Assembly (NCBI GenBank): GCA_017302795.1
Contig: JAFLCB010000006.1
Location: 1-64,000, forward strand
Length of the DNA stretch: 64,000 nucleotides
Direction: 5' to 3'
Origin: Deltaproteobacteria bacterium
Lineage (GTDB): Bacteria; Bdellovibrionota; Bdellovibrionia; Bdellovibrionales; JAMPXM01
How positions within the stretch are numbered: position 1 is the stretch's first letter; the number at the start of each line of letters is the position of its first letter. Under the pieces are notes generated by a model, which had not been told where the DNA came from, searched no databases, and saw only the letters and a program-made list of their open reading frames with translations. Both the position numbers and the translations under genes were made by a program. Positions 7,031-43,494 of this stretch are shown here, in pieces.

Positions 7031-7267
7031 GTTAGAATGAGGGTTCGCGTTCCCGAAGAAGTTGCACGTCGGTTTAATGAACAATTTGGGCGCACGGAAA
7101 GATCGAACGCAATAGTTGAAGGAATTGAGCTTCTTTTTGAGAAACGTAAAAACAGCACAGATTCTCAAGATTTGATTTCGGACTACAAGTTGAGAGCGGC
7201 CGAAAGCACTGCCGAATCGGAAGATTGGGACGTGACTCTTCGTGACGGGATCGCTGATGAAGACTGA
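7022..7267 (+). CDS. Ribbon-helix-helix DNA-binding protein
   Basis: The product is 81 residues. It starts at GTG 7022 behind a strong AAGGAGGTGA. Residues 3-45 fit a ribbon-helix-helix: a basic beta strand (VRMRVRVPEEVARRF), then RTERSNAIVEGIELLFE. The acidic tail is probably unstructured. It is the only plus-strand gene inside the VirB-like operon, and its start overlaps the start of the divergent VirB9-like gene. It could therefore repress transcription or translation of that gene. No toxin partner is adjacent. Confidence 0.75.
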   Translation: MAHVRMRVRVPEEVARRFNEQFGRTERSNAIVEGIELLFEKRKNSTDSQDLISDYKLRAAESTAESEDWDVTLRDGIADED

Positions 7268-7310
7268 ATCAAATCTTTTGAGTCCTGCTTCAGTACAATG
7301 CTGTAAAGCC

Positions 7311-7880
7311 CTATAGAGTTTCATCGCGTACCTCCGTGATTTCAAAGGGCCAAGGGTTCGTTTCGGTTCTCTCAATTGGACGGACCGTCAATGTGACTTT
7401 GAGATTTGTTGAAATGGTCTCGATTCGTTTTAGAATCGTAATTTGAAGGGCGGCTTCGATTGTCTCTCTATCGACGAGATCAATCGACAGAATCTTCGCT
7501 GTTTGAACAAGCGGTTCGGTTTTTAGTCGCTCATTCACCTGCTTCAAATCTGCGCGCTTTGACTCCCATAGGGCCGAAGCCATGATATCGCCCGCACGAC
7601 TGATCTTCTCGGCGTGATTAGAAGGCGTGAACACGTAGTAGTTTTCAATGAAGCTACGAACGAAGCTCACGATTTCTTTTCTTCGTAAAGCTTCGTTTGA
7701 ATCCGAAATGACATAAGAGGCGTCATCGGCAACACCGATGAGAATAGTTCTGTCTTTTTTAAGGACTGCGAAAACTGTTGCGGAAACAGCCCAAAGACCA
7801 AGTACTATAATAAGACCTAATCGCAGGACTTCTTCTCGAATGAACCGACTTCTTAGCCAGTATTGTATCACGGGCTTCAT
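7311..7880 (-). CDS. VirB8/TraE-like inner membrane protein
   Basis: The product is 189 residues. It has a short cytoplasmic tail, one transmembrane helix at about 21-40 (GLIIVLGLWAVSATVFAVL), and a periplasmic domain with the mixed helix/strand pattern of TraE/VirB8. The length is that of F-plasmid TraE. A GGGAGG site precedes the ATG, and the gene overlaps the VirB6-like gene by 4 bp. In type IV secretion systems VirB8 nucleates the inner membrane assembly. The conserved position between B6 and B9 supports the call. Confidence 0.7.
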   Translation of the reverse strand: MKPVIQYWLRSRFIREEVLRLGLIIVLGLWAVSATVFAVLKKDRTILIGVADDASYVISDSNEALRRKEIVSFVRSFIENYYVFTPSNHAEKISRAGDIMASALWESKRADLKQVNERLKTEPLVQTAKILSIDLVDRETIEAALQITILKRIETISTNLKVTLTVRPIERTETNPWPFEITEVRDETL

Positions 7881-8620
7881 TTTGTGATTCCTCCCATTGT
7901 GGCGGTTCCGATCCTTGCGGCTGCGCTAATGGCGGCTTGGGGGCGAAGATCCCTGAGAAGAGAAAGACAAAAGAGTGGTGAGAAGATCTGAAGGACAAGG
8001 ACAACAATCGAAAAGATGAGGCTACTTAGGGAGCTACCTTGAAACTGTAGCCAAAGCTTGGAACCCAATAGTCCGATCACATTCCAGAGAGTTGGCCAAA
8101 GGCACATTGCTAAAATCATTGTTGAAACTTGCGAAACGCCGATCCCTCGGCCCGTTAGGTAGGCTGAGATAAAAACCAAAGGCGATGCGACTGCGAGGAG
8201 GCCAATCAGTACCGAGTAAACCGCGCGGATCACGTGATAGACGGCTAAACTTCCAAGCTCGTTTAAGAAACTGATCCAAGGGATTGCTTGGGATATCGCC
8301 GAGAAGAATTCGTCGATAGCTCCAAGCTCACGCATTTGTGATTCAACTCGAATGAGTCCTGCTAACTCACCGGTGCCACTTACGAGGATTCTGAAAGCGT
8401 GCGGGAAGATCGTAAGTGCCAAAAGCAGCGTGAGGGTTTCTTTGAAAAGCATAAAGTAGCTTTCAGCACTTTCCATTGAGACTAAGAGAAGTGCTGAGCG
8501 AACTATAAATAGAGCACCAATTAGGCCAGTCGCGGCCTTCGCAACAATGCCGAACGTATTTAAGACAGCCTCCATCATGGAAGGATCAAGAGGTGGAAAG
8601 GCCATCATGGCTGTCTCCAT
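7877..8620 (-). CDS. VirB6/TrbL-like polytopic membrane protein
   Basis: The product is 247 residues with about five to six hydrophobic segments: AATGLIGALFIVRSALLLV, ETLTLLLALTIF, AVYSVLIGLLAVASPLVFI, VSTMILAMCLWPTLWNVI and LIFSIVVLVLQIFSPLFCL. This is the profile of VirB6/TrbL, the inner membrane channel component. A second ATG at 8608 has a better spaced GGAG and may be the true start. The gene overlaps its upstream neighbour by 16 bp and the VirB8-like gene by 4 bp. Confidence 0.7.
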   Translation of the reverse strand: METAMMAFPPLDPSMMEAVLNTFGIVAKAATGLIGALFIVRSALLLVSMESAESYFMLFKETLTLLLALTIFPHAFRILVSGTGELAGLIRVESQMRELGAIDEFFSAISQAIPWISFLNELGSLAVYHVIRAVYSVLIGLLAVASPLVFISAYLTGRGIGVSQVSTMILAMCLWPTLWNVIGLLGSKLWLQFQGSSLSSLIFSIVVLVLQIFSPLFCLSLLRDLRPQAAISAAARIGTATMGGITK

Positions 8621-14974: not shown

Positions 14975-15988
14975 CTACTTAAGACTTTCAAAAAGGTCTT
15001 GGCTTGTTTTTGGAGCCGATAGTAGGCGGGTACTTCCTTGGCCAAAGCTAAGACTTAAAATTAGGTTTCCATCGATTTCAACTATGTGTGGATCACAAAC
15101 ATGTACACCTTTCGTTCCAACAATGAATTTGTCTGTATGGGTGGTCCACGTTGTACCTCCTGGGTTTAGTCCGGCTGAAATCGTGGAAGCGGTGATGTAC
15201 CACTCTGTCCCAAAGCCTTTGTTAGGCGTGTAGGCTTGTCCATGAATAGCGAATATACCCTTTCCGGGTATATGCTTGATCCAAGGATTCCCGCCGCCTT
15301 TAACGACGTGAATCTCGCTTCGGTTTTCATCAAAACTGATTTCATCATCCACCAGGCGAGCATGTGAATAGGCAAGGCCCACTTCGCGCTGATCAGGCGT
15401 GCTGTCGCTTGATTCTACCAGCAGATGCCACGTCCCATCGTCGGCGATATCGACCGCGACATTCCAAAGTTGATGATAAATCGAAGACCGGTCTTCCGAC
15501 CTCCTAAGGACAGGTCTCCCGCCATTAATCTTCATCCACGTAAGGCCCAAATCAAGAGACTTCCAAAGGTAGACATTGCCGTCGACGGTCGCGAAATTGA
15601 AAAGCGTTTCGCCTTGACTGATGGTGTAAGGGAATCTCGCACTTTCGATCACAAGATGAGGCGACACTGTTTCTAAAAGAGTGGTTTGAAGTGGGACTCG
15701 AAACATCTTTCCGGTCCACTCGTGATCATAAAACGCTAGCAAACTTCCATCGACATTCACCAAAGAAGTTTCAACAACCGATCTATTTTTAAAGGCATGA
15801 TCTGGAATCTCTGAAAACACCGATGCTTCGCCGATAAGCTCTATGTCGGTCGGTGACGCATCTTTTGTGCACCCGCAGCCAATGGACATCAGCGACACGG
15901 CGAACGCTGTTAAAAAAAGTGAACGCCGATCTTTTGTGTTCGCCGTTTTGATAAGATTTGGGTCTGTAGGTGTCTCGCTATGTTTCAT
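14975..15988 (-). CDS. Beta-propeller (sialidase-like) lipoprotein
   Basis: The product is 337 residues from the ATG at 15988, chosen because GGAGG precedes it; an ATG 21 codons upstream does not have this. A long basic N-region with RRSLFL precedes a hydrophobic stretch and MSIG-Cys38, so it is probably a lipoprotein; the twin-arginine could indicate Tat export. The mature part has repeated blades with Trp and Asp, as in LWKSLDLGLTWMK, and resembles exo-sialidase or BNR-repeat propellers. A true BNR Asp-box is only approximate, so enzymatic activity is uncertain. Confidence 0.55.
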   Translation of the reverse strand: MKHSETPTDPNLIKTANTKDRRSLFLTAFAVSLMSIGCGCTKDASPTDIELIGEASVFSEIPDHAFKNRSVVETSLVNVDGSLLAFYDHEWTGKMFRVPLQTTLLETVSPHLVIESARFPYTISQGETLFNFATVDGNVYLWKSLDLGLTWMKINGGRPVLRRSEDRSSIYHQLWNVAVDIADDGTWHLLVESSDSTPDQREVGLAYSHARLVDDEISFDENRSEIHVVKGGGNPWIKHIPGKGIFAIHGQAYTPNKGFGTEWYITASTISAGLNPGGTTWTTHTDKFIVGTKGVHVCDPHIVEIDGNLILSLSFGQGSTRLLSAPKTSQDLFESLK

Positions 15989-16071
15989 TATGGCCTCCCG
16001 GATCGATTGATTTCGATCAGGGTGCCGAGGTGCGGTTGCAGCTGAGGTCACAGTAAAAGCGCGAAGGGGCC

Positions 16072-16096
16072 CCGTGTGTCCCTATGTGACACACGG
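16072..16096. promoter_or_regulatory. Perfect 9-bp inverted repeat, probable operator
   Basis: CCGTGTGTC (16072-16080) and GACACACGG (16088-16096) flank a 7-base spacer. The repeat lies between the lipoprotein gene starting at 15988 on the minus strand and the XRE gene starting at 16169 on the plus strand. No T-run follows on either side, so an operator for the neighbouring XRE protein is more likely than a terminator. Confidence 0.5.
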
Positions 16097-16168
16097 ACCT
16101 TTCAAGCTAAGAGAAGTCGCACTTTCATATCCCGCTTGAGGTGGTAAATTAGTTCCTCGAGGGTAAAT

Positions 16169-16498
16169 TTGGATAGAGTCATCGTGATGCGACCGAAAGA
16201 ATGGTCTATGCAGCTTGCGAAACGATTAAGAGAACTTATCAGACAGCACGATCTGACCGTGGCGAAGCTATCAAAGCGAACCTCGATTCCAGTCAACACT
16301 CTTCATAATTGGCTTTCTGGCCAACCACCCCGAAACATCGCCCAAGTAAAATCGGTGGCTGACTTTTTAAATGTCAGCGTTGACTTCCTTGTCTTCGGCA
16401 AAGAGCTAAACCTCGAACCCCAAGCCATCCCAGAACTTTTAAAATCCGGCCAGTTCGAAATCGTCCTCCGCGCCCGCGCACCAAAACGAGAGTCGTGA
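16169..16498 (+). CDS. XRE-family transcriptional regulator
   Basis: The product is 109 residues; an internal ATG at residue 7 is an alternative start. The helix-turn-helix lies at about 15-70: LRELIRQHDLTVAKLSKRT, then IPVNTLHNWLSGQPPRNIAQV and ADFLNVSVDFL. This is the Cro/CI fold with the FLNVSVDFLV ending often seen in phage-type repressors. It lies upstream of the barrel protein with a 16-bp gap, so it may be in the same transcript. The adjacent 9-bp inverted repeat is a candidate binding site. Confidence 0.82.
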   Translation: MDRVIVMRPKEWSMQLAKRLRELIRQHDLTVAKLSKRTSIPVNTLHNWLSGQPPRNIAQVKSVADFLNVSVDFLVFGKELNLEPQAIPELLKSGQFEIVLRARAPKRES

Positions 16499-18061: not shown

Positions 18062-20932
18062 ATGAGAATCAGCGGCCCGTTAATTCACTCTAGAACGCTT
18101 CAATCGAAAGGCATCCTGGATTCCAAAATGAAAGTTATCATTTCGCCCAAGGACCTATCATCCGACGCGCACGTTGCCTTTACGGCCTTCGCGTCGCTTT
18201 GGGCAGATCATATGCTGTTAATTGGCGGTGAGGGCGACAATCAAGCTCTGGACATAGACGTGGCACTTGAAAGATTTGTTGCGCTGTCAAAAGTAACGCA
18301 ATCATCGTCATTCGTAGATGCGTTTGTCGCCAAAGAGGAATTCGATTCTTTGGGGCATTTTTTATCGGTGCATTTTTCTGGCAAAGAAGAACTAAAAATC
18401 GAATCGCACTCTAATCTTGGTCACGAAAATTTTAAAATTCAATTTTATTATCGAAACAGTTCAGGTCAGCGAAATGATGTCTCGTTACGTGAGGCGAACG
18501 ACCATCGTCACTTTGGACCGATCGGTGCAGGGTTGGCAAAAATTGCCGCTAAGATTGAAGGCGTGGATAGCCATTTTCAGGTAGTCCACGAGATGAAAAC
18601 TTTTTTAAGTGCACAGAGCGAAACAGTCGAAAAAGTTTCGTTCGATGCAACTTTGAACGCCTTGAGAACAGTTGAGGTCGAAAAGTTTCGTCCGATAGTA
18701 GAAGAATCAAAAGTGCCGGGTTCCTTCCAAGTATCTCTTGCTGTCGAAGATACGAGTGGGACTACCCAAGAAGTTAATACCAATCTTATCAATCCGAAAA
18801 CTAAAACGATTAGATGTGCGGACGGCGCAATTATTCCGTACGGAAGCGGCGAAGCTGGTTTTATTGATGAGATTCGCAGTCGGCAATCGATGAACCGCAA
18901 GCAGGCTGAGCGATTGGCGCAGCACCCAGAAGATCTGATACCGCCAGGTGCCGACACCTCGAGGCTTGATCTGTCCGAATACCACAGTCGGGTTTTGGGT
19001 TTTGAGCCGCGCAAACAGCAGAAAGTACTAGAGTTCTCGTCGAGTGGCATCGATTGGTTTAGTGATCTTGATGGTGAGCCTAGTCTTCGCGTTCAGGATA
19101 CAACAGGCAAGACGGTCGAAATGAAATTGCCGTCCAACGACAAAATAAAAAATGCGATTCAGGAAGTAACATCACAGCTTAAAGAATCTCAATCCAATCC
19201 CGGCGCATATGTCCCGAAACTGGTACCGATAGACGAACATGGCCAGTTTGTCATTCAACCCACCGCAGAGTCGCTACTTGGCCTAGGCGTGATTGAAACG
19301 ATTTCGGAAAAGTGGGCAGCGTCGCCAGAATTGAAGAAACAAAGGCGGCCTGTCGAAGTCGCGGTACTTCGCGAGCAAAATGCGAAACTCGCCACTGTTA
19401 TTGCCGATCCTGTTTTATTTGCTGAGCAAATCGATTCTGTAACAGATGCGAAACTCGATCCTCATCAAATTGACGGCGTTAAATGGCTACTTGGGCACAT
19501 GCGACGGCAGCGAGGTGGCGTTGTTTTGGCCGACGAAATGGGTCTTGGCAAAACGGCGCAGATGCTTGTTGCGTCGGGCATATTGTACAACCTGATTCGT
19601 AACCAAGGGGCCACACCATGGTTTCATGCATTGCCGGTTTGGCGTCCGGTGCTCGTGGTTGCGCCGAAGATTCTCCTTACCAACTGGATTAGGGAGGCAG
19701 GGCGTTTCCTAAAGATGGATGTCCTGCCAAAACGAGAAATTGTCGGTAGCAGCACAATTCATCATCTTCTTGGTGATGGAGGTAAAGATGCGACCAAACT
19801 TCTTGAACTTGACCTCATCGCGATGAACTACGAGACCTTGGCTAGCTATCAGCGCGAACTTCTTAGATTAGACTTTTCTGTTGTAGTGTTCGATGAATCG
19901 CAAAACATAAAAAATCAAGACACCGCCAAAAGTATCGCGGCGCGCGCGGTTAAATCATTCCTGCCGATTTGCTCGACCGGTACGCCCGTTGAAAATTCGC
20001 TGAGTGATCTCTGGACCCAGATCGATGCGACAAATCGCATTCCTATCAATCCATTAGGAACATCTAAAGACTTTAGTGCCGATAAGCGGAATTCAGCCGA
20101 AAGACTTACCGAAATACGTTCCCAGCTGGATTTCCAGTCTAAAAAGACGATCATACTGCGAAGAGAAAAGTCGATTCTTAAGAACTTTCCAAAAAAAGTT
20201 ATTCATCCACCGGTTGTTCATTCAATGACGGAAGAACAAGCGGCGCGTGAAGCGAATTTGACGAAAGCAATGAAAGGCTCGCCCTTAGAATTGATGACTG
20301 AGCTGCGGAAGCTATATCAGCATCCGATACTATTGTTGAAGAGCGCAAATGCCAGCTCTTTGTCTGTTAAGCAACTTATCGAAAAGGGGCCGAAGCTAGC
20401 TGCGACTATCGAAATTCTAAAAAGGATTAAAGGGCTAGCACAAAAAGTTCTTATTTTCACTCCGTCTGTACCGATGCAAGCAATTCTTGCTAGAGTCATA
20501 GCTGAAGAGTTCGGCGTGGCGGTCAATGTCATCAACGGCGAAACTAACCAACGTGGTGCCCCGGGCGAAGCCGCCGAAAAAATAATTGAAGACTTCAGTG
20601 CGAGCGATGGATTTGGTGCGCTCGTTCTTAGTCCCTTGGCAGCAGGCGCCGGTTTAAACATCACGGCAGCCAATCACGTCATTCACTATGGACGTTGGTG
20701 GAATCCGGCCAAAGAGGATCAAGCGACTGATCGTGCATATCGGCGGGGGCAACAGCTGGATGTGAACGTGTACTACCCTATATTGTCGAATCTCGAGGGC
20801 AAAGGGTTCGATGTTGGACTTCATGAACTTGTCGAGCGCAAGCGAGCACTCGCACGGGATTTCTTGGACCCAATAGAGTCTTTCAATATATCTCGGACTG
20901 AAATGGATGAAATCAGCAAGGGGCGAGTCTAA
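18062..20932 (+). CDS. zorD: ZorD-like SNF2-family helicase of a Zorya system
   Basis: The product is up to 956 residues; the ATG at 18128 (residue 23) is an equally plausible start because neither has a clear ribosome binding site. About 460 N-terminal residues without a recognised motif precede a SNF2 core: Walker A ADEMGLGKT (Lys497), Walker B FDESQ (Asp611), STGTPVENSLSDLW, and a helicase C domain ending in ATDRAYRRGQ (Arg891, Arg894). ZorD in characterised type I Zorya is an SNF2-like protein with a large N-terminal region, which degrades or processes phage DNA after recruitment. The stop overlaps the zorA start by one base (TAATG). Here it is first in the operon, whereas canonical zorD is last. 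Confidence 0.82.
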   Translation: MRISGPLIHSRTLQSKGILDSKMKVIISPKDLSSDAHVAFTAFASLWADHMLLIGGEGDNQALDIDVALERFVALSKVTQSSSFVDAFVAKEEFDSLGHFLSVHFSGKEELKIESHSNLGHENFKIQFYYRNSSGQRNDVSLREANDHRHFGPIGAGLAKIAAKIEGVDSHFQVVHEMKTFLSAQSETVEKVSFDATLNALRTVEVEKFRPIVEESKVPGSFQVSLAVEDTSGTTQEVNTNLINPKTKTIRCADGAIIPYGSGEAGFIDEIRSRQSMNRKQAERLAQHPEDLIPPGADTSRLDLSEYHSRVLGFEPRKQQKVLEFSSSGIDWFSDLDGEPSLRVQDTTGKTVEMKLPSNDKIKNAIQEVTSQLKESQSNPGAYVPKLVPIDEHGQFVIQPTAESLLGLGVIETISEKWAASPELKKQRRPVEVAVLREQNAKLATVIADPVLFAEQIDSVTDAKLDPHQIDGVKWLLGHMRRQRGGVVLADEMGLGKTAQMLVASGILYNLIRNQGATPWFHALPVWRPVLVVAPKILLTNWIREAGRFLKMDVLPKREIVGSSTIHHLLGDGGKDATKLLELDLIAMNYETLASYQRELLRLDFSVVVFDESQNIKNQDTAKSIAARAVKSFLPICSTGTPVENSLSDLWTQIDATNRIPINPLGTSKDFSADKRNSAERLTEIRSQLDFQSKKTIILRREKSILKNFPKKVIHPPVVHSMTEEQAAREANLTKAMKGSPLELMTELRKLYQHPILLLKSANASSLSVKQLIEKGPKLAATIEILKRIKGLAQKVLIFTPSVPMQAILARVIAEEFGVAVNVINGETNQRGAPGEAAEKIIEDFSASDGFGALVLSPLAAGAGLNITAANHVIHYGRWWNPAKEDQATDRAYRRGQQLDVNVYYPILSNLEGKGFDVGLHELVERKRALARDFLDPIESFNISRTEMDEISKGRV

Positions 20933-22851
20933 TGGGAACTAATTCAATTTTCACTTCAGTCCTCCAGATCATTGATAAAGGGAAATCGGAAGACTGGATT
21001 GTTGTCGGTGTAGTTTTGTTTTTCGCTCTTGTTATCGGAATTGCCATACGATTGACCAAGTCAAAAGTACTCAAGGAAGTTGAGGCGCTTGCGCATTCGT
21101 TACGTGAAATTGGACGAGGTCAAGATTCAAACGGGTATGGCATAGCCTACGAGAGTATTTTTCTGGGGAGCTTTGATATCCCGGGACGAGGTCTCACTAA
21201 CGTTTTCAAAGTTGATCCGGTACAGCACCTAAAAAATTATGCGAAGAACCAATTTACTAGAAATTTGGGCGTTCAAGCCGCGCCTTACATTTCCGGCATC
21301 GCCCTTTTCTTGACTTTCTTTCTGATCGGCGTTGCCGTTTTCCAGATTGGTGGCTCGCTGTCCGGCAAAGAGCAAGTGGTTAAAGAGGTAAGCGTCGGTG
21401 CGCAAACTGAATTACGCAATATGGAATTGACTGTTGCAGAGCGACTTGAAGCGCCGATTCAGCATCTCTCTTTCAAATTTTTTGTATCTGCAATTGGATT
21501 GATAGCCTCGATTTTACTTTCAGTTTATAGATCGAACATGTTGAACAAGATCGAGGAAGCGGTCGAGAAGGACCTTCACTTCCTGTATTCCAAGGTCACC
21601 ACGCGTGATGCAAGCGATATTGCCCTCCAAATTGAACAGGCAAAGGGTGCGACAGAAACAGTGGCGCAGCTGAAGCGAACAAATATTCAGCTAGAGTCCC
21701 TAGACAAACTAGAGGTAAAGGTAAGTGACCTTTCCCAGTCTGTTTTGCAAGCTGTTGCGACGCAGATTACCGACGAGCTTGGTAAAAGTATGGGCCTTCT
21801 TTTAAGTCAACAATCAGATAGCTTAAAGGAAATTGCCGAGGCGATGAATAAAAGTTTGGAGGCTTCTGTCGGTAAAATCGGCGAAGACTTGAATCAGAGT
21901 TTTAGAATCATGTCTGAAACACTGAACAAAAAGTCAGACTCTGGGGTTGGCGATATAGTCGCAAAGCTAGAATCAATGTTAAGTGGAGGAACTAAGCAGT
22001 ACGGCGAAGAGCTTGGTAAATCACTCTCGGGCTTTGGTAAGCTTCTGCCTGACCTTGAAAAAAGTTTGAATTCTATGATGAATCAAATGGCAGCACTCGC
22101 CAAGGACAACGCGGAACGGGCTGAAAAGCAAAACCTCGTTCAGGAAGAAACTTTGAATTCAAGTCTACAGAAGATCAACGAAGCGATTCAAAAGATTTCC
22201 GCTACGCAAACGCAGTCACAAGTTCATCTTGATTCGGCTTTAAGCCGAATTAAGGAGGTTTCAGATAACGCTGTATCAGCAGCATCAAGCTCAATCGAGA
22301 GCGTTTCAAATACAATGGGGCAGCGCCTAAGAGAGCAAACGTTGGAATCGCAACGTATGATCGATCGCCAAATGACCGACATGAAAGAAGTGTCGGCCAT
22401 AGTGAACACGGTTGTCGCGTCTCTTCGGCCGATTTTGTCAGAGCTTCAGCCAATTATGCAAAATACCAGCAGCATTGCGATTGAATCTAAAGCTGCGGCC
22501 ACACAACTTCGTTCAGTGTCTGACAGCTTTAAAAGTGTATTCGATCAAACACTTGAGCTTCCGAAGGCCGTTAATGCTGTGAACCGAGACTTCAATCAGA
22601 CCCTCAGTGAGCAGGCAAGAATGCTGGCCCAAAACCAAGCGTCATTTAAGGACCTCGGGGAAACTGTTGGTAGTGGTGTTTCGAGCGCATTAAGTGTGGT
22701 TCGCGCAGGATTCGAACATTCGAAAAACGAAATTCAACATGGTCAAACCCAGCTAGCACAAAATTTCGGATCTAAAATCGAATCGTTAAGTGATTCGATG
22801 GAAGAGCTCAATGGAAGTATTAACAAGATTGTTTCATTGGTTAAGAATTAG
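20932..22851 (+). CDS. zorA: ZorA-like MotA/TolQ/ExbB-type motor protein with long tail
   Basis: The product is 639 residues. Hydrophobic helices lie at about 22-41, 118-140 and 181-199, as in the MotA/ExbB/TolQ proton-channel fold. About 430 residues of polar, heptad-rich helix follow, with many Gln and Ser and few Pro. This long cytoplasmic tail is the hallmark of ZorA, where five subunits surround a ZorB dimer and the tail extends inward to transmit the signal. It is translationally coupled to zorD, and zorB follows after 12 bp. A methyl-accepting or generic ExbB protein would lack this topology and context. Confidence 0.85.
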   Translation: MGTNSIFTSVLQIIDKGKSEDWIVVGVVLFFALVIGIAIRLTKSKVLKEVEALAHSLREIGRGQDSNGYGIAYESIFLGSFDIPGRGLTNVFKVDPVQHLKNYAKNQFTRNLGVQAAPYISGIALFLTFFLIGVAVFQIGGSLSGKEQVVKEVSVGAQTELRNMELTVAERLEAPIQHLSFKFFVSAIGLIASILLSVYRSNMLNKIEEAVEKDLHFLYSKVTTRDASDIALQIEQAKGATETVAQLKRTNIQLESLDKLEVKVSDLSQSVLQAVATQITDELGKSMGLLLSQQSDSLKEIAEAMNKSLEASVGKIGEDLNQSFRIMSETLNKKSDSGVGDIVAKLESMLSGGTKQYGEELGKSLSGFGKLLPDLEKSLNSMMNQMAALAKDNAERAEKQNLVQEETLNSSLQKINEAIQKISATQTQSQVHLDSALSRIKEVSDNAVSAASSSIESVSNTMGQRLREQTLESQRMIDRQMTDMKEVSAIVNTVVASLRPILSELQPIMQNTSSIAIESKAAATQLRSVSDSFKSVFDQTLELPKAVNAVNRDFNQTLSEQARMLAQNQASFKDLGETVGSGVSSALSVVRAGFEHSKNEIQHGQTQLAQNFGSKIESLSDSMEELNGSINKIVSLVKN

Positions 22852-22863
22852 AGGGCAGTATAG

Positions 22864-23679
22864 ATGGCCGATGAACAAGAAAAAATTGATTTTAGTCACT
22901 CAAATACAGACTTGATGGCAAGTATAGCTGTGATATTTCTATTGCTTGCGGTCGCGATGATTCTGGCGAACTCCGCAGCTGTAAGCAAAGCTGAAAATGC
23001 CCAAGAAAAGTTGAATGCGGAACGTAACGAATTTAATAATGAAATTAGAGACTTGCTGGACCTACCGCCCGGCGGAAAAGATGTAAGCGACGACGGATGC
23101 ATTCGTGTTATCAACGACGATTTGAAAAGCGAAATTAGAATTCGTTTTATCGATGGTCATTCGGCCGGGGGAGAAAGGTGTAGGGGCCTCACTTTTGGTA
23201 CGGCTAAATTTGAGTTAGATGGCGATGGTGACAGCAAGAACATTCTAATTAAACTTGCACGGATTTCCTCAAGGGCTTGTCAAAAAAAATCTGTCGGCAA
23301 AGATTCACCAATTTGGCGACTTAGTATCGAAGGGCATACCGATACCGATCGATACCTCGATTTTAAGCGTTCAGATTGTAAAGACCCTAGCGAGGAGTTT
23401 TGTGGGAATCTGTACTTGAGCGCCCAAAGGGCCCGAGAGGTGTACCTTTGGATTGCTCGAACAATGGCTACCGACCAGAAAATCAGTCGGGATAAACAAT
23501 GCTTTGAAAAGATGGCCCTGATTTCTGGGAGGGGGCCTCTCGATCCAGTGGAAGAAGGCGATCGTGAGACAGCAGCCGTTGATGACGAGGCGGACTCAAA
23601 TCTCGACGGAAAACAAAGTAACCGGCGTGTCGAATATATTGTTCACTTCAAGGTCGCCAAGATCGAGGCGAGCAAGTGA
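22864..23679 (+). CDS. zorB: ZorB-like MotB/OmpA-domain stator protein
   Basis: The product is 271 residues. One transmembrane helix (about 17-37) is preceded by Asp16, in the position of the proton-carrying aspartate of MotB/ExbD. The periplasmic part carries an OmpA-like peptidoglycan-binding domain: FGTAKFELDGDG, SIEGHTDT (156-161), LSAQRAREVYLWI and a NRRVEYIV ending. Several cysteines (about 79, 106, 139, 167, 179) could form disulfides in the periplasm. With ZorA it would build the ion-driven complex anchored to the cell wall that senses phage entry. Its last four bases overlap the zorC start. Confidence 0.87.
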   Translation: MADEQEKIDFSHSNTDLMASIAVIFLLLAVAMILANSAAVSKAENAQEKLNAERNEFNNEIRDLLDLPPGGKDVSDDGCIRVINDDLKSEIRIRFIDGHSAGGERCRGLTFGTAKFELDGDGDSKNILIKLARISSRACQKKSVGKDSPIWRLSIEGHTDTDRYLDFKRSDCKDPSEEFCGNLYLSAQRAREVYLWIARTMATDQKISRDKQCFEKMALISGRGPLDPVEEGDRETAAVDDEADSNLDGKQSNRRVEYIVHFKVAKIEASK

Positions 23680-25004
23680 GCAACCTCAGGAAACTCATCG
23701 AAAAAGCTGCCGTGGCTTTTGTTAAGGAAATCGAATTTACGAATTCGAGCTACCTTCGACGATTGAATGAGTTGACGAAGGATCTCGAAAAACTGGATGT
23801 CGCTCGATCTGTTTCTCCGACTAGTAAATCTAGAATCGATAGAATCTGCGAAAAGGTATACTCCGGCGACGAATTGTCTGGGAGTGACTGGCGCATAATG
23901 GGCCGGTCCATTGCGGCATTCGAAAATCAAACCCTGGAAAGAGCGTTAAAGGCCGCGACTGACAAACCGGTCGCAATGGGCAAAGTAATGGAAGGTCTTC
24001 TGAAGAGCTGGCACGGCGGGGTGGCAGTTGCAGAAAAACTAAAGCTTTTCGAGGCGCAGACGCCAACACTTTCATCAATTGCATTCGGATGGGGGGATTT
24101 GCAGAGCGCACGTTCTGCGCTTTCGCGAATTCGAAAAGGTGTCGGCGGTTTGGAAAACACTGGACCAGGAATTAAGAGTTTGGTGTGGCTTGCAAATGTT
24201 TTGCGTGAGCCCAGTCGAAGTCGTCAGCTGGCGATGTTCACTGAGGTCAACGCATCAATTCTGCCAGAAATTCGACCCTGGTTGAAAACGACTCATCGGG
24301 CCCCGGTACATATTGAGCTCTCGAGTCTTGGCGTCGAAGTAGCGCTGGAAGTTTGGAACAATAGCCAACAGGACAAAAGTGCCATGACCTTGCTAGATCA
24401 AGTGCTTGCGCACCCAGAGATCGGTGATCCGCGCGGTTTTAGTAGAAGCATAATCTGGTCGGAGATTGAAAAAAATAGGCCTGAGTTATTTAGGAAGCTT
24501 CTGGTTTCCTTGAACCGAGGCGACATCGAATTCTTTTTTAGTAAGCTCAAGGGACTCGACAGAGACCGAAAAAACTTCTGGATTAATTATACCGATCAGA
24601 TGCTTCGAACTCAGGTAATTCTACGGCGGGTCGAAATGAATCAATTAGCCCATAACTTTCCGGCTGGAAGTGAAGAACGAGCCATCATTGATCGAGCTTA
24701 CGTTTTTGCTGGAAGTAGCCAGCAAAATCTACTGGTGTTTTATTTCGGCAGTTGTGTGGCCGTTGAAGCGGGCGAGACTGGCCAGGCATGCTTCATATAT
24801 GACCGAAGAAACTTTGAATCCATCATGGAGCGTACATCGCGACTTTCCGAAGCTAGCCGGCAAGTTCAAGGTACATCCCAAGACTTCAACGATAAGTCTT
24901 TGATCAAACACCGTCAAATTCATCATCCACCGGGAGTTTGGCAACGGCGCCTTGACGACGTCCTCGCACATCTAGGTGTAACTTCGAATGGGAGAGCGGC
25001 ATAA
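23676..25004 (+). CDS. zorC: ZorC-like EH_signature protein
   Basis: The product is 442 residues. It starts at GTG 23676, overlapping the zorB stop by four bases. The protein is mostly helical. Near 355-376 is a strand-turn pattern with conserved-looking Glu (FGSCVAVEAGETGQACFIYD), and near 410-425 a histidine-rich HRQIHHPPGVW. Together these fit the EH_signature domain that defines ZorC. In studied systems ZorC binds DNA and acts with ZorD. It is shorter than E. coli ZorC (about 560 residues). Assignment rests on context plus this C-terminal pattern. Confidence 0.72.
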   Translation: MSNLRKLIEKAAVAFVKEIEFTNSSYLRRLNELTKDLEKLDVARSVSPTSKSRIDRICEKVYSGDELSGSDWRIMGRSIAAFENQTLERALKAATDKPVAMGKVMEGLLKSWHGGVAVAEKLKLFEAQTPTLSSIAFGWGDLQSARSALSRIRKGVGGLENTGPGIKSLVWLANVLREPSRSRQLAMFTEVNASILPEIRPWLKTTHRAPVHIELSSLGVEVALEVWNNSQQDKSAMTLLDQVLAHPEIGDPRGFSRSIIWSEIEKNRPELFRKLLVSLNRGDIEFFFSKLKGLDRDRKNFWINYTDQMLRTQVILRRVEMNQLAHNFPAGSEERAIIDRAYVFAGSSQQNLLVFYFGSCVAVEAGETGQACFIYDRRNFESIMERTSRLSEASRQVQGTSQDFNDKSLIKHRQIHHPPGVWQRRLDDVLAHLGVTSNGRAA

Positions 25005-25032
25005 ATAGCTAGTGCGCAAAACTGAAAACATC

Positions 25033-26760
25033 CTAAGCAATGCTTTTCGTCTTTTTAGCGGATTTACCATTTGAAGAATCACACCAGCCTAGAAGGCTCT
25101 TTAAGTGATTATCCTTTGGCAAAAATAGCGCGTTGGTCATAAGTTTCTCGGGCGCAAAGCAGTAGAAACGGCTTCTTGCTCTGGTCACTGCGACATTCAG
25201 GCGCCGTCCATCGGACAAGAACTCTTTTTCGCCAGGCCTGTGTTGTTCCTGTTCCACACCAATTGAGAAAATCATTGCTTCGCGCTCTTGGCCTTGGAAA
25301 CGTTCCACTGTGTCGACCAAGATTCGCTGGGAATCGGTGATTCCGATTTTCGCCTGAAGCGCACCGCAAATTGCCCCGGCTTGTGCACGGTGTGGTGTCA
25401 CGATGCCGATTTCTGTAAATGGCAAGTACCCATCGTCGCTGAGTGCCTGGACTAGATCCGCAACCATTCCCGCCTCTTTTAGGTTGGCGTTGTTTTGTGA
25501 ACTTCCGCCATGGCGAATGAGATTTACGGGCGAGGTCCCTAGAAGGCCAGACGCGCTTGATACGCCACTTAGGACATCGCGGTCGCGGTTACTGTCGTCG
25601 GGCTTAAGTCGCCCGTTGTAAAAGCGATTAGACGACCACTCTTGAATGCCGGCATTCATGCGGTACTGGGTTTCAAGCATTGGGTAGGTGTCTTGCGAAA
25701 TTTGATAAGAAAATATGTCATCCGCCGGAAGATTATGTCGAACCGCTTGAATGACGGGTGGCAGCTGTTTGTGATCGCCGAACATGATGACTCGTGAGCA
25801 CAGCTTTTCTAGAAACGGGTAGAAGTAGATTGGGACTTGGCTTGCTTCATCAATAATCAGGAGATCTATTTCAGGCGCCCGAGCGGCCATACACCAAGAA
25901 TGCATGCTCGCAGCATAAACGCGCGCTTCTTCATTTATTTCTTTAAATGATTTCACCCACGGGATGCTGACTCCGCATTTAGCATAGGGTTCAGCTTTGA
26001 TTCGTTCTTTATTCGTCGAAATGCGTGCGACCAAGTCTTCATCGGCACCACCGGCCATAATTCGCGCCAGCGCATTGTCGATTGCAGAGTGTGACAAGCT
26101 TGCAAGGCCAATACGAACCCCACTGTCGATGGCTAGTTTAACGAGGCTAACAAGCAGGTGAGTTTTTCCGGTACCCGGTGGGCCTTGAACAAGTCCCTTG
26201 AAATCGTTGTCCATCAGGAACTTCAACGCATCAACCTGCGTCGAGTTTAAGCCATTGATTGATCGAGCAAAGTTCTTTCGCACCAATGTGTGGTCAATCG
26301 CGAAATGCTCGGCAACACCGCCAAGGCGATCGAGATCAAGAAGCTTTTGTTGAATGATTTTTCGAATGCCAGTTGCACTCTTCGGCAAAAGGAAAAGTTC
26401 GCTGCCATCTTCTGGTATCAGCCTTCCTGGCACAATGACTTCTAGAACACCAGGGGAGGGGAAGCGAACCGACGTGATGCTTGTCCCAGATATGACTTGA
26501 AACCGTTTTGTCAGCGGATCAATGCGTCCGACATCTACCTGGTCGCCTGCACGAAAGCGGCTAAAGTAGATTCCGTTGGCACGAAGAACAAGATTCGTAT
26601 TTTCACGACTAGCCGTCGTAAGCGGTCCAAGTACGTCGCCGGATGCGATGCTTGACTCTGGATCAGCCGTTAAAATCCTCTGAAGACGGCCCCACTCAAT
26701 GCGTGTTTCCGCCTGAATGAAATCGGACAGAATTGAGACATTCAAATCGCGGCTTTTCAT
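25033..26760 (-). CDS. UPF1-like SF1 DNA/RNA helicase
   Basis: The product is 575 residues with all SF1B motifs: Walker A GPPGTGKT (193-200), Walker B IDEASQ (303-308), GDHKQLPP (328-335), ETQYRM (363-368), VERFQGQERE and NVAVTRARSR. The first 150 residues are beta-rich and may be an OB or stalk domain. It resembles the UPF1/IGHMBP2/DNA2 group. It is convergent with zorC, 28 bp apart, and divergent from the ribbon-helix-helix operon. It may be an accessory of either system or a stand-alone defence gene. Standard Zorya descriptions do not include it. Confidence 0.85.
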   Translation of the reverse strand: MKSRDLNVSILSDFIQAETRIEWGRLQRILTADPESSIASGDVLGPLTTASRENTNLVLRANGIYFSRFRAGDQVDVGRIDPLTKRFQVISGTSITSVRFPSPGVLEVIVPGRLIPEDGSELFLLPKSATGIRKIIQQKLLDLDRLGGVAEHFAIDHTLVRKNFARSINGLNSTQVDALKFLMDNDFKGLVQGPPGTGKTHLLVSLVKLAIDSGVRIGLASLSHSAIDNALARIMAGGADEDLVARISTNKERIKAEPYAKCGVSIPWVKSFKEINEEARVYAASMHSWCMAARAPEIDLLIIDEASQVPIYFYPFLEKLCSRVIMFGDHKQLPPVIQAVRHNLPADDIFSYQISQDTYPMLETQYRMNAGIQEWSSNRFYNGRLKPDDSNRDRDVLSGVSSASGLLGTSPVNLIRHGGSSQNNANLKEAGMVADLVQALSDDGYLPFTEIGIVTPHRAQAGAICGALQAKIGITDSQRILVDTVERFQGQEREAMIFSIGVEQEQHRPGEKEFLSDGRRLNVAVTRARSRFYCFAPEKLMTNALFLPKDNHLKSLLGWCDSSNGKSAKKTKSIA

Positions 26761-28649: not shown

Positions 28650-29062
28650 AGAAAATTGTCGTGCCCGGAATCAATATTCAGTGGCCGTGGTCCCAACTTC
28701 TCTTGTCAGGTAAGAAGACGGTAGAGACGCGCGGCTATGAATTGCCAGCGAAGCACGTTGGTAAACCTTTAGTCATTATCGAGACTGCCGGTCCGCGAGG
28801 CAAAAAAGAGGCCGGGATCGACCGAGCTAGAATCGTTGGTCTGATTGTTTTTCGATCCTCGTTCCAATATCAGTCGAACTCACATTGGCGAAAGGATCAT
28901 AATCGACACCTAGTCGATGTCGATGACCCGATGTTTGCTTGGGGAAAGTCCAATGAGCGTTGGGGCTGGGAAGTCGAGTCCGTAAAGGTAATTGAGCCGC
29001 ATCAGAACGCGCCAAAGAAAAAAGGCATCGTATTTACGTCTGCGTGTACGATCTCGATTTAG
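28646..29062 (+). CDS. ASCH-domain protein
   Basis: The product is 138 residues. The N-terminal motif QWPWSQLLLSGKKTVETRGY carries the ASCH signature (a Trp, then GxKxxExR at about 21-29), and GRSS/RIVGLIVF strands complete a PUA-like beta barrel. ASCH proteins bind RNA or modified nucleotides; some hydrolyse N4-acetylcytidine. It starts within the radical SAM stop codon. Its own last four bases overlap the end of the convergent giant helicase gene. The pairing with radical SAM suggests recognition of a modified base. Confidence 0.75.
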   Translation: MKKIVVPGINIQWPWSQLLLSGKKTVETRGYELPAKHVGKPLVIIETAGPRGKKEAGIDRARIVGLIVFRSSFQYQSNSHWRKDHNRHLVDVDDPMFAWGKSNERWGWEVESVKVIEPHQNAPKKKGIVFTSACTISI

Positions 29063-32000
29063 ATTTGCGCCTTTACCACGCTTACAACATCTCGGATTTT
29101 TGACCACTCCTGATTGCTTAGCGCCACCTGATAGACTGAAATATCATTTATCGCCATGACCGCGTTTCCAAGCTGGTAGTCATGAAAATTGTATTCGTCC
29201 TTAACAGCATACCGAACTACGCAGTTTTTCCCATCGCTATCGGTAAAAGAAAACAAATTCCCGAACCCATTAAGTGACCAAACATCGGCGCCGATGATTG
29301 GATCGACAACTGAGAAATCGGAAGACTCACCAGACGAGTGCATGTGAAGCGCAGATTTGAAAATACTGACGATTTCATTCACTTGTTGTGTATTGAGCGT
29401 CCGATTATCAAATTGACCATGTTGCATCGGAGGCAGCGGCGACCAAGTCGCCGGTACTTCGTTTGTTACGCCAAGCCATTTCAATGTCGCAGGGATAATC
29501 GATTGGCAATTTCGAAGTGAAGTGTGAGTAAGCACCGTCCAGGCTTTACCTCTGAACGTCATTAAATTTCTTTTTCGAAAATCCTCGGTTAAAACTTCCC
29601 ATTTTTCGTGTGGATCTCGCCCATCTATAAATAGAAACCGATTGTTAATCCCAGATTGATAGTCTGGACGTGTTATTCGTTCGTGCGGGAAAGCATCCAT
29701 TTGGGAGCGCAGTTGGCTGCCGCGCACGCCAAAGTGCCAAGAGACCATCTCCGCAAAATATTTTTCTAAAGGCGAGGAATTGTCATAGCTAACAGGGTCA
29801 GAAATATCCGGCGACTTTGATGATTTGACAGATTCTGACCAAAACTTATTTTCGTGTTTGAAGGCTTGTAAAATGCGCTTTGCTGCATGTCGAGAAATTC
29901 GCAGGTGAAATCTTTGATTACCATAGTCAAGTAGGCAACGGTCACAGGCCCGCTCGCAATCACAACCGTTTGTTTGACCATCTATTCGATCGGCGACTCG
30001 GCTTAGTGCTGTTTCAAACCACTCATCTCGCCGGTGCCACAATTCTTTTATCGTTCCCGAGCCGCCTTCAATAGGATCGTAAAATATTAAAAAATTCTCG
30101 CGGTCATTGAAAACATCAGCAGCAATACCTTCACCGCGAGGTCCAAGTTCGCAGACCTCACGTGCGGATCTCAGGAGAGCTTCCAAAAGCGATCGATGAA
30201 TGTCGATGTCCGAATCTTCAAAATCACCTTCAAAACCAAAGACTGGTGGTAGCCTTAGCTCGATAGCGTCAGTTCGCTCTCTTTCAGCCATTAGCACTAC
30301 GCCTGATTGATTTTGCCCGTTGGCCGGCGGTTGATTGAAACGAGGGCATTTTCTTGAGTGCCATTGTGCCGGAGTGTCTTGATCGGCTTGTCGAGGTGGT
30401 GTCCTTAGGGCTGAACATAGTTCGCAGTATTCGTAGGTCTCCGCATTGCCAAATCGGCTAGGTGAAACAATTTGAATAACTCGAGTATTTGAGCGCTTGT
30501 GCAAAAGAGCTACGCCGGCTGCTGGGTTGACACTCGCTTCTTCCGAGAGCGTATCTAAAAATGTACCATTATCAGCAGTAATATAGGTTTGAATATCTAG
30601 ACCAGCAACGCCGCGGTCTTCAGAATCGTCGCCAATGGCGCCGTCTCGAGTAGCATCAACCTTGATTGGCTGAAGAGGAGTTAGGTTGATAGTGGCTGTT
30701 GAAGTTGAAGTACAACTTGGACACACGTCTTCAATATTCTTAGAAATGAAATTGTGATCCCGACAAACTCGGATTCGGTCTGGAATCTTTCCCTCGGCTT
30801 CGACCCTAAAATAGGCAGGTCTAAATTTGCCCCCAAGAGCCCATACAAATCTGTCTTTTTGTGCACTTGGTGCCCAGTCTCTATGTGCTTTGAATTTGTC
30901 GTCAAGAACCTCGTAGGGGTCCTCTTTACTTGAAAAGCATGTGAGCGCGAGTGTGTCTCCTGGGAACTCATACCTAGGTAAAAATCCGCGATCAGCCAGA
31001 AAAAACAAGGGAGCCCAGTCTCTAACTGACTTGTATCCGTTTTGTCGATTGAAGCCCAAATGAGTTAAAAGTTGGTTCCGTGCTCTTTTTACAGCGCGGC
31101 TAGCTTCGTCTCCTGAAGCTCCACCAATAGTTAGGTTTGCGGCACTTGCCTTTCGAATTTCGACAACCAGTTGTTGGTAGCGAATGCACCAATAGTCAAG
31201 AATTGGCCTAAGCCTGCCCTCAACGCCCAATCCGATTTTTTCTATATCCTCGGGATTACAGTTACTAAAGACTCGGTTCAGTTCATCCTTTTTTTCAATT
31301 GCGTGTCTTGATAGCGGCACGATCAAGCGCTCTGTAAATCTCGTTGGACTTGGTACGGCCTCAAGACTCATTTCTGACTGTGGACTACTGTCATCAAACA
31401 TGAGGTTCCGCCAAAACCTTAGCGATTCCAAAATTTCAGATGGTGCTGTTTCAAGCAAATGCGCGTAAACGTGACGCGAAATTACAAGCTGGTTGTCAAT
31501 TGGCATGATGAGGCTTCCAATTCGACCTTTTATCAGCCGATTTGGCTCATCAAAAAACATCGAGTCGTATGGCGAGGCTCGAGTGTGGGTGATCGCTAGA
31601 CCAGCTTTCGATTCCCTGCCGGCTCTACCAATTCTTTGTCGGTAGCTCGCCGGGCTAGGTGGAACATTTCGCAAAAGCACTGCCGGCAATTTTTTAAGGT
31701 CGACACCCATCTCTAAAGTTGGGCTAGCGACAACTAGATTCACTTCAGCTGAGCCTGGCGATGAATTGTTAAACAGGGCTTCAATCTTTTGTCTTCGTTC
31801 GCCTTCCACCCAGCCTGAGTGTTCGACAGCATGAAGTGGCGTTGACTCGCGCACGAGATGGCCAAGCCGGTAGTAGAAAAACTGCTCTCTCGTTTCTAAA
31901 GGCAAGATTGTCATCGCGCCGTCGCATCTGGAGTTGATACATGGACCGCCACTCGCTATCTGACCTTTCGGGATAAATCGAAGTCTTCGGCACTTTGGGC

Positions 32001-34545
32001 ATTCATGGATATCGCCCTCAGTCGCCAACATGAAAGATGAGTCTTGGAGCAGCCAATGGTTGTTTTCCTTTCTCAGGTAATTGTAGTTTTGAAGGATGTT
32101 TAAAAACTGCTCTGCTAGGGTAATCCGGTCTTCGTCTGCACGAGTGTTAAAATCGGGAATAATTTTTGAGATTTGGGACTCAAAGAAAGAACGCCCTTTG
32201 TTTGCAAGAAGAGCCATGCGTCCGTTGCCGGCGGGTCCATCGACGTTTGCGATAAACCGGGTTCTAAGTCCAGTGGCCCGAAACTTATCGAGCATAACTC
32301 GAATGAGCCATGTTGCGGTCTCTTGCGAAAAGTCAGGCGACACTTTTGTTAAATCGCCGGCTGCCTGTTTAATTTCAGTTCCGTTTCGTCCTCGATAGTC
32401 AACGGCGATGTAGCATACAATCTCGGGACTAGTTTGAGATGTGCTTTCTGTCGTGAGAGTAGGCCGAATGAGGTGTTTGTCTAGGGCCTTTTCTAATTCA
32501 GTCATCTCAGCTGAATTGGGCTCAGTCGAAAGATTTCCAATAGATCGTTTGTCAAAGTACTCTGTGCGCAATTCAGCGTCGGCAAGTGTTAGCCATGCCG
32601 CCTGTCTTCGTTTGTCTTTCTCAGCAGCGGGGATCAGTTCGACGGGTATCTGAGCCGCGCACCAATCAAAAAAAGGCAGAAATGAAAAGTTACCGACGAG
32701 TCTCTTTACAGGCTGAGTTTCAGTGTACTTTGCAAGTAGCGAAAACACCGCAAGGCGGTGCGATCGCTGGTTCGAAAACCCTGCCTGCAAAGCAACATCC
32801 TGGCGCGAGTCAGCAAACACAAGAAGGCGTCTTTCATTCTGGTCTGCATGCCTAAGTACTGATGCCGAGAGATTGGTGATATTAGATGATGCTCCAGAGA
32901 GAATCGGTCTAATCTGTTCGCCCATAGGGTTAACAGCTGCGCAGAACGGGCATCGGGTGAACCCGCGGCCTGTTCCATCCTCGTTTTGGTCAATGTTCAG
33001 TACGAAGAGTCTTTTTGCACCTTCTTCAGGCGGTGGAGTGGCCCTACCTCGTCGTGCGCGCGGTACAGGTTCTGCAAGAATTAAACTTCGTTCTGTGTCT
33101 GTTCTTATGTCAATGAGGTCTGCGCCTTCAAACGGCTCCGTCGTTATCCACACTGCGCCGGGCTCTGCGCCCGGTTTACGTCCATTGTTATCAAGTAGGT
33201 TCCCTGACTCATGAATCCTTGCAATCCAACCGTGTGCGCCACATTCGCGGCATAATCCTATAGAATAGTGTGGCTCGGATTCACTCTTCGGCGCCAAAAA
33301 GTCAAATTGACGTACACCAATCGGCGAAGATACTCGAATCGCTCCGCTTACAAGAAGGTGAGCTCGATGTTCAATCGACGGTTTGTCGGCCTTTCTATCA
33401 CTGGGCCAAAGGGTCTTGAGAACCGTTTGTATTTCCAAGGCATTTTCTGTCTCAGAATTCGCCTTGCGAGAGGCATCATTTGGTAGCCATCGTTTGGCCG
33501 CATCTTCGATTGACCGACCTCCCCAAAAGGAATGCATTAACGCATCTTCTAAATTGCGCTTTGTTTCAACTGTCAGTTTTTCGAGATCGAAAGAGAATTG
33601 CGGCGGTGCTTTGGGTTCATGGCTATCTGGAAATCCGACAATCGAATCTTGAGAAAACTCGGTCCCAAAAAAACGACTGGCAAACCGAATCAGTTTTTCT
33701 TTATCAAGCTGTTCTTTGCCAGTTGTGGCGGACGCGGCGATTGCGTGCAGTTGCTTGGGTAAGACCTTGGCTGCTTCACGAAGTCGTCGGTTGAGGTATG
33801 CGACTTCCGCTCCCTTGACGCCAATGTAGGTGTGAAGTTCGTCGTAGAACATCCACCGAAGCCGCGAGTTTCCTGAGCTCTCAACCATTTTCTTAAATTC
33901 ACCACGAAGAAGCATGAGTTCGAGCATCTTGTAATTTGTCAGAAGAATTGTAGGTGGGTTGGTTTGCATTTCCATGCGATCTTGAATCGCGATTTCACCA
34001 GAATAGACTTTTGCGGTGATGCCCCAAGCAGGGTCCAATAGAGGAATTTTGCCACCTTCAGTTTCGGTTAGTCGTTTGTGTTGATCGTTAAGCAAGGCGT
34101 TCATCGGGTATATGAGAATCGCTTGTAGACCTTTTTGGGACGGCGACTTAAGCAGATCGCTAATCATTGGCACTAAGAGTGATTCGGTTTTGCCGGTACC
34201 TGTACCCGAAGTGAGCACAAGATTCATTTGCGACCCATTGCCTAGCTTAGTCCAGCTTTCTGCTTGGTGGGGGTAAGGTGAGGAGAAGGGGAGTCTTGCA
34301 AGGATACGTTTGTCGATTGGAAAGTCTTCTTTTTTTCTCCCGTCAGGTTCTATTCGGGTGACTTCAACATAGGGACCTCTAAAAATTGGACTCTTTGGCG
34401 AACTTGCAAAAGTGGAAATCGCAGTGCGGAGATTTTCATCTCGCACTGGAAACTCTGAGAGAAAATAATCGCGGTAATCCGCCAAAACTTTCTCGGCCAA
34501 AGAAAGTGCATCGCCACCAGTATTGCTCGAGCGTTCTTTGCCCAT
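29059..34545 (-). CDS. Giant DEAD/DEAH helicase with DUF1998 domain (DrmA-DrmB fusion-like / DruE-like)
   Basis: The product is 1828 residues. The SF2 helicase core has Walker A TSGTGTGKT (112-120), Walker B DELH (235-238), SAT (272-274), a YxxRIGRAGR motif VI and a VASPTLEMGVDL motif. Several Cys pairs form putative zinc sites (CPKC, CINSRC, CPSC, CELC). Near 1525-1547 the DUF1998 cluster CDCERACDRCLLDYGNQ appears, followed by about 280 further residues. DISARM splits these parts into DrmA and DrmB; Druantia DruE carries them in one protein of this size. It starts two bases after the methylase stop, last in the operon. Confidence 0.85.
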   Translation of the reverse strand: MGKERSSNTGGDALSLAEKVLADYRDYFLSEFPVRDENLRTAISTFASSPKSPIFRGPYVEVTRIEPDGRKKEDFPIDKRILARLPFSSPYPHQAESWTKLGNGSQMNLVLTSGTGTGKTESLLVPMISDLLKSPSQKGLQAILIYPMNALLNDQHKRLTETEGGKIPLLDPAWGITAKVYSGEIAIQDRMEMQTNPPTILLTNYKMLELMLLRGEFKKMVESSGNSRLRWMFYDELHTYIGVKGAEVAYLNRRLREAAKVLPKQLHAIAASATTGKEQLDKEKLIRFASRFFGTEFSQDSIVGFPDSHEPKAPPQFSFDLEKLTVETKRNLEDALMHSFWGGRSIEDAAKRWLPNDASRKANSETENALEIQTVLKTLWPSDRKADKPSIEHRAHLLVSGAIRVSSPIGVRQFDFLAPKSESEPHYSIGLCRECGAHGWIARIHESGNLLDNNGRKPGAEPGAVWITTEPFEGADLIDIRTDTERSLILAEPVPRARRGRATPPPEEGAKRLFVLNIDQNEDGTGRGFTRCPFCAAVNPMGEQIRPILSGASSNITNLSASVLRHADQNERRLLVFADSRQDVALQAGFSNQRSHRLAVFSLLAKYTETQPVKRLVGNFSFLPFFDWCAAQIPVELIPAAEKDKRRQAAWLTLADAELRTEYFDKRSIGNLSTEPNSAEMTELEKALDKHLIRPTLTTESTSQTSPEIVCYIAVDYRGRNGTEIKQAAGDLTKVSPDFSQETATWLIRVMLDKFRATGLRTRFIANVDGPAGNGRMALLANKGRSFFESQISKIIPDFNTRADEDRITLAEQFLNILQNYNYLRKENNHWLLQDSSFMLATEGDIHECPKCRRLRFIPKGQIASGGPCINSRCDGAMTILPLETREQFFYYRLGHLVRESTPLHAVEHSGWVEGERRQKIEALFNNSSPGSAEVNLVVASPTLEMGVDLKKLPAVLLRNVPPSPASYRQRIGRAGRESKAGLAITHTRASPYDSMFFDEPNRLIKGRIGSLIMPIDNQLVISRHVYAHLLETAPSEILESLRFWRNLMFDDSSPQSEMSLEAVPSPTRFTERLIVPLSRHAIEKKDELNRVFSNCNPEDIEKIGLGVEGRLRPILDYWCIRYQQLVVEIRKASAANLTIGGASGDEASRAVKRARNQLLTHLGFNRQNGYKSVRDWAPLFFLADRGFLPRYEFPGDTLALTCFSSKEDPYEVLDDKFKAHRDWAPSAQKDRFVWALGGKFRPAYFRVEAEGKIPDRIRVCRDHNFISKNIEDVCPSCTSTSTATINLTPLQPIKVDATRDGAIGDDSEDRGVAGLDIQTYITADNGTFLDTLSEEASVNPAAGVALLHKRSNTRVIQIVSPSRFGNAETYEYCELCSALRTPPRQADQDTPAQWHSRKCPRFNQPPANGQNQSGVVLMAERERTDAIELRLPPVFGFEGDFEDSDIDIHRSLLEALLRSAREVCELGPRGEGIAADVFNDRENFLIFYDPIEGGSGTIKELWHRRDEWFETALSRVADRIDGQTNGCDCERACDRCLLDYGNQRFHLRISRHAAKRILQAFKHENKFWSESVKSSKSPDISDPVSYDNSSPLEKYFAEMVSWHFGVRGSQLRSQMDAFPHERITRPDYQSGINNRFLFIDGRDPHEKWEVLTEDFRKRNLMTFRGKAWTVLTHTSLRNCQSIIPATLKWLGVTNEVPATWSPLPPMQHGQFDNRTLNTQQVNEIVSIFKSALHMHSSGESSDFSVVDPIIGADVWSLNGFGNLFSFTDSDGKNCVVRYAVKDEYNFHDYQLGNAVMAINDISVYQVALSNQEWSKIRDVVSVVKAQI

Positions 34546-34547
34546 AA

Positions 34548-38852: not shown

Positions 38853-38859
38853 CGGTGCC

Positions 38860-43483: not shown

Positions 43484-43494
43484 ATTGGTGTCCT

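Follow-up and report, generated by a model that had tools for sequence, protein, structure and literature searches.

Type I Zorya, as studied in Klebsiella and E. coli, is the closest described relative of the operon reported here. In the Zorya systems studied, ZorA and ZorB assemble in a 5:2 ratio into an ion-driven motor that is attached to peptidoglycan, a Ser/Thr ring surrounds the ZorB Asp, and deleting any type I component abolishes protection (PMC11890865). Type II and III systems have ZorA and ZorB in common with our operon, and in these ZorE, or ZorF and ZorG, replace ZorC and ZorD (PMC11890865). The type I operon of Klebsiella, annotated zorA1-zorB1-zorC-zorD (locus L121), reads A-B-C-D, whereas the operon described below reads D-A-B-C (D-first). 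The A-B-C-D order of the studied systems is a descriptive trait, not known to be functionally required.

The window, a stretch of 64,000 nucleotides from a Bdellovibrionota genome, carries a zorD-zorA-zorB-zorC operon at 18062-25004, read as four adjacent open reading frames on the + strand that overlap or nearly do so. We consider it very likely that these genes make up a complete type I Zorya operon, probably a functional anti-phage one, from a derived lineage whose zorD has shifted from last to first place. As the first-pass annotation had proposed, zorD leads the operon and is coupled to zorA through a TAATG overlap, which is visible both in the reading frames and in the sequence itself. 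Its features are the following:

18128..20932, + strand: zorD, SNF2-family helicase/translocase, 934 aa (956 aa if read from 18062)
20930..20934, + strand: TAATG, overlap of the zorD stop (TAA, 20930-20932) and the zorA start (ATG, 20932-20934)
20932..22851, + strand: zorA, MotA-like motor subunit, 639 aa
22864..23679, + strand: zorB, MotB/OmpA-like subunit, 271 aa, 12 bases after zorA
23676..23679, + strand: GTGA, overlap of the zorB stop and the zorC start
23676..25004, + strand: zorC, EH_Signature protein, 442 aa, GTG start
18106..25009, + strand: four-gene cassette, the stretch shared with locus L002 (blastn, 82% nucleotide identity)

The limits of the cassette come from locus L002 of Bdellovibrionota bacterium KLAP46, which carries the same four genes between different flanks. 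The unit consists of exactly four genes and was inherited as one cassette, since DNA similarity between the two loci ends on both sides of 18106-25009 and the flanks are unrelated (blastn). No conserved fifth gene was found near the 19 complete D-first loci surveyed below. The cassette has a G+C content of 46.7%, similar to the 47-49% of its surroundings. The comparison also bears on the start of zorD: position 18128 is likelier than 18062, because similarity to L002 begins at 18106, just ahead of 18128, where an in-frame ATG corresponds to the zorD start of L002 at 10022.

All four genes match PADLOC type I profiles, and each product retains the residues expected of its Zorya counterpart. The aligned positions given below are presumably the functional ones, to judge from the Ser/Thr ring around the ZorB Asp (PMC11890865) and from work on the E. 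coli system. First, ZorD matches ZorD1 (2.4e-116) and contains Pfam SNF2 and Helicase_C domains, with GKT at residues 496-498 and DE at 611-612 (956-aa numbering), the latter aligning with D730/E731 of Klebsiella. E. coli ZorD (8QY7) is its best PDB match both by sequence (9e-63) and by structure model (5e-41); the protein is shorter than the ZorD of Klebsiella and E. coli (934 versus about 1080 aa). Second, ZorA matches ZorA1 (3e-11) and is a MotA-like membrane protein with three hydrophobic segments (about 23-41, 114-140 and 180-198) and a cytoplasmic tail of ~440 residues, in agreement with the three membrane helices and ~430-residue tail initially described; in the alignment, its T128 corresponds to T147 of Klebsiella ZorA, and its S186 to S184. 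Third, ZorB matches ZorB1 (2e-17) and has a single hydrophobic segment (17-35). Its membrane Asp16 and OmpA motifs had also been noted beforehand: Asp16 aligns with Asp26 of Klebsiella, and the peptidoglycan-binding domain bears the motif EGHTD...NLYLSAQR, with N182/L185/R189 aligning with N152/L155/R159. ZorA and ZorB are very divergent at the sequence level, and a PDB sequence search returned no Zorya match to either of them.

Finally, the 442-residue product of zorC had been called an EH_signature-like ZorC, a call that failure to match ZorC would have undone. The assignment holds by domain and by fold: the protein scores 65.4 bits against Pfam EH_Signature (cut-off 27.5) and matches PADLOC ZorC1 (5e-12). 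E. coli ZorC (8R68) is the sole PDB match below 0.001 for its structure model (Foldseek, 1.6e-7), and VIA gives 8R68 a Z of 14.4, the next match reaching 7.1. The structure models of ZorC and ZorD, whose folds thus match those of the E. coli type I proteins, are of middling confidence (mean pLDDT of the two, 70 and 69). E364, equivalent to E400 of Klebsiella, is nearly invariant in the alignment, and H416 or H417 occupies the histidine position, aligned with the Klebsiella histidine region at 443. No ZorE HNH nuclease, the mark of type II, was found among the Pfam and PADLOC matches of the genes scanned around the operon. The locus therefore has the same four genes as the type I systems of Klebsiella and E. 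coli, with motor, peptidoglycan-binding, EH and SNF2 residues aligned.

Because the key residues that were checked are kept, the best guess is that the operon works like the type I systems studied. In the inner membrane, ZorA (five subunits) and ZorB (two) would form an ion-driven motor that ZorB anchors to peptidoglycan. A disturbance of the envelope caused by phage would activate this motor, the ZorA tail would relay the signal to the cytoplasm, and ZorC and the ZorD translocase would then act on DNA. Most likely, the permutation keeps the four products co-translated, with a D-A coupling instead of a C-D coupling, and leaves the mechanism unaltered; nothing indicates that a D-first operon works differently. 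We infer that the operon is expressed, and that its products assemble, are active and defend the cell.

The length of ZorC deserves separate consideration, as it had been described as shorter than usual. This is true with respect to Klebsiella and E. coli, whose 560-aa ZorC bears a C-terminal extension of roughly 90 residues that the 442-aa protein lacks, but not with respect to type I ZorC at large: lengths run from 440 to 471 aa in the D-first lineage and from 459 to 563 aa in A-B-C-D systems of Poribacteria, and the PADLOC ZorC1 profiles matched by the window protein are 432-575 long. A short ZorC does not distinguish the D-first lineage, and it is unlinked to the permuted order, because the extension is also absent in A-B-C-D Poribacteria and in some Myxococcota.

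Gene order was read with profiles built in this analysis, across phyla that were unevenly sampled, Pseudomonadota through plasmids only. Complete D-A-B-C operons were found at 19 distinct loci, two of them in Bdellovibrionota (the window and L002) and 17 in Myxococcota (L004, L005, L007-L012, L056, L104, L112-L118). Three further D-first loci are cut by contig ends (L003, L006 and L045); for L003, a different contig of that genome carries the zorA-B-C end. The order D-A-B-C also occurs, outside these 19 loci, at L135 (2562-10012), in the phylum of G245 and L006. In nearly all D-first loci, zorD and zorA overlap or lie a few bases apart. Of the 20 Myxococcota genomes in which an EH_Signature protein occurs, 16 are D-first, three are A-B-C-D and one holds a fragment, so that D-first is the majority order in this sample (16 of 19 readable genomes). 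The Myxococcota systems (Corallococcus, Hyalangium, Pyxidicoccus, Polyangiaceae) belong to another phylum than the window, with which they share gene order, clade and similar gene lengths; their ZorD proteins are about 30-32% identical to that of the window. The complete A-B-C-D order was found at 20 loci: eight in Poribacteria, four on Pseudomonadota plasmids, three in Myxococcota, two in Bdellovibrionota, two in the phylum of G260 and one in Vampirovibrio. A third order, B-A-C-D, occurs in a type I locus of the phylum of G260 (L183, 5889-12826, - strand). Searches of plasmids returned no match for the window ZorC and one weak match for the D-first ZorC of Pyxidicoccus. The Actinomycetota sample (phylum of G261) gave no EH_Signature match and no control match either, and is thus uninformative.

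Some loci depart from a four-gene layout. At L114, otherwise a complete D-first locus, zorA is in two frames (6068-8095). At L064 (8310-10756) and L065 (8838-10711), a piece of zorA is directly followed by the C-terminal part of zorD, and no zorB or zorC was found. In the phylum of G251, that of Vampirovibrio, loci that carry zorA-zorB and an EH_Signature protein (L161-L167, L169-L174, L177, L178 and L180) have no zorD within the fetched stretch. In 16 of 20, a small gene encoding about 114-137 aa is conserved before zorA or after zorC; the one tested has no Pfam or PADLOC match.

The first-pass annotation had suggested that the permuted operon represents a distinct lineage of type I, and the gene trees agree. 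In each of the four unrooted trees, a single branch separates D-first from A-B-C-D systems, with a support of 100/100 for ZorD (34 rows, including 19 D-first loci) and of 100, 90 and 97 for ZorA, ZorB and ZorC, respectively (29 rows each, including 14 of those 19 loci). When the ZorD tree is rooted with eight non-Zorya SNF2 proteins, all Zorya ZorDs form one group (support 100), and the main D-first clade (100) is nested with two A-B-C-D rows (97). To judge from this rooted tree, the D-first order is derived, because the main D-first clade lies inside the A-B-C-D systems. The order probably arose more than once: the ZorD of L135 joins the Klebsiella-type ZorDs (95), and forcing it into the D-first clade gave a p-AU of 0.022. 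A common origin for every D-first locus is thus weakly rejected, L135 sitting on a long branch, and long branches make this second origin uncertain. Since gene order has been rearranged, probably more than once, we argue that it is not mechanistically required.

Three other readings of the operon were weighed. The long branch that separates D-first systems in all four trees, the adjacency of zorD and zorA in nearly all loci and the lack of the canonical ZorC extension could together point to a functionally distinct lineage, in which ZorD-ZorA coupling and a ZorC without extension would amount to a different sensor or effector arrangement, with ZorD docking, for instance, on the ZorA tail without ZorC. 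We regard this as unlikely: conservation extends to the EH residues, those of the motor and the helicase motifs, A-B-C-D systems have short ZorCs as well, and gene order alone is uninformative on mechanism. Equally doubtful is the corresponding proposal that the D-first clade constitutes a separate subtype, in which ZorD, made first, would dock on the tail of ZorA and ZorC would play a smaller part; if true, motor and DNA-processing enzyme would form one pre-assembled complex.

A remnant operon, either decayed or silent, seems a very unlikely reading. No clear sigma-70 promoter was found upstream of zorD (8 promoter-like sites versus 8.3 expected by chance), the promoter and terminator scan of the region being no better than chance, and zorA is split at the related locus L114. 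Nevertheless, the four frames of the window operon are intact and overlapping, and their key residues are conserved; the four frames of its L002 relative are intact as well, at 82% nucleotide identity. The independent recruitment of a non-Zorya SNF2 helicase in front of zorABC, which would make zorD no orthologue of ZorD, is hardly credible and is rejected by the rooted tree: although defence islands commonly hold SNF2 helicases, with another one in the window at 38860-41490, all ZorDs, D-first ones included, form one clade apart from the eight non-Zorya SNF2 proteins (support 100), and both the sequence and the fold of the window protein have their best PDB match in E. coli ZorD.

The reading of a type I operon with relocated zorD also has to be set against existing catalogues. 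The window proteins stay far below the NCBIfam cut-offs, with 36 of 190 bits for ZorA, 40 of 490 for ZorC and 242 of 1500 for ZorD, and no match for ZorB; these cut-offs are curation thresholds rather than biological features. Scored with the PADLOC models native to them, Klebsiella ZorA and ZorC reach 1355 and 949 bits; the D-first ZorA, ZorB and ZorC of Pyxidicoccus reach at best 30, 46 and 55 bits with PADLOC models. The D-first lineage is without a native model in the PADLOC and NCBIfam models scanned. If many catalogued type I systems already had zorD first, the claim of a distinct lineage would be weakened; the order is common in Myxococcota, but has no native PADLOC or NCBIfam family. 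A literature search for Zorya gene order in Myxococcota returned no match. The D-first order is the hallmark of an old branch of type I, under-catalogued in these two libraries, that occurs in myxobacteria and relatives of Bdellovibrio. Type I Zorya thereby gains a second, deeply diverged branch that is absent from present profile libraries, so that counts of Zorya in Myxococcota and Bdellovibrionota may come out too low in surveys. The divergent D-first sequences also constitute material for testing which contacts between ZorA, ZorC and ZorD are essential.

The operon lies within a defence-rich stretch that includes several helicases, an Eco57I-type methylase and a PADLOC candidate family. 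Immediately downstream, and beyond the end of the L002-like cassette at 25009, a MkoA-like SF1 helicase with AAA_11/AAA_12 domains (25033-26760, - strand) converges with zorC. Three large genes on the - strand (29059-41490) form a DISARM- or Druantia-like cluster:

within 29059-41490, - strand: DEAD helicase with MZB domain, 1828 aa, DruE-like
within 29059-41490, - strand: Eco57I-type methylase, 1434 aa, DrmMI/type IIG-like
38860-41490, - strand: SNF2 helicase, 876 aa, DrmD-like

Further on, a member of PADLOC candidate family PDC-S02 (42554-44508, - strand; 3e-148) with a NucS-like nuclease domain adjoins a WYL-domain regulator. Upstream of zorD, a stretch carrying an HTH gene (15986-16491) is 75% identical to 9210-9715 of L002; its distance to zorD is 1.6 kb in the window, compared with about 0.3 kb in L002.
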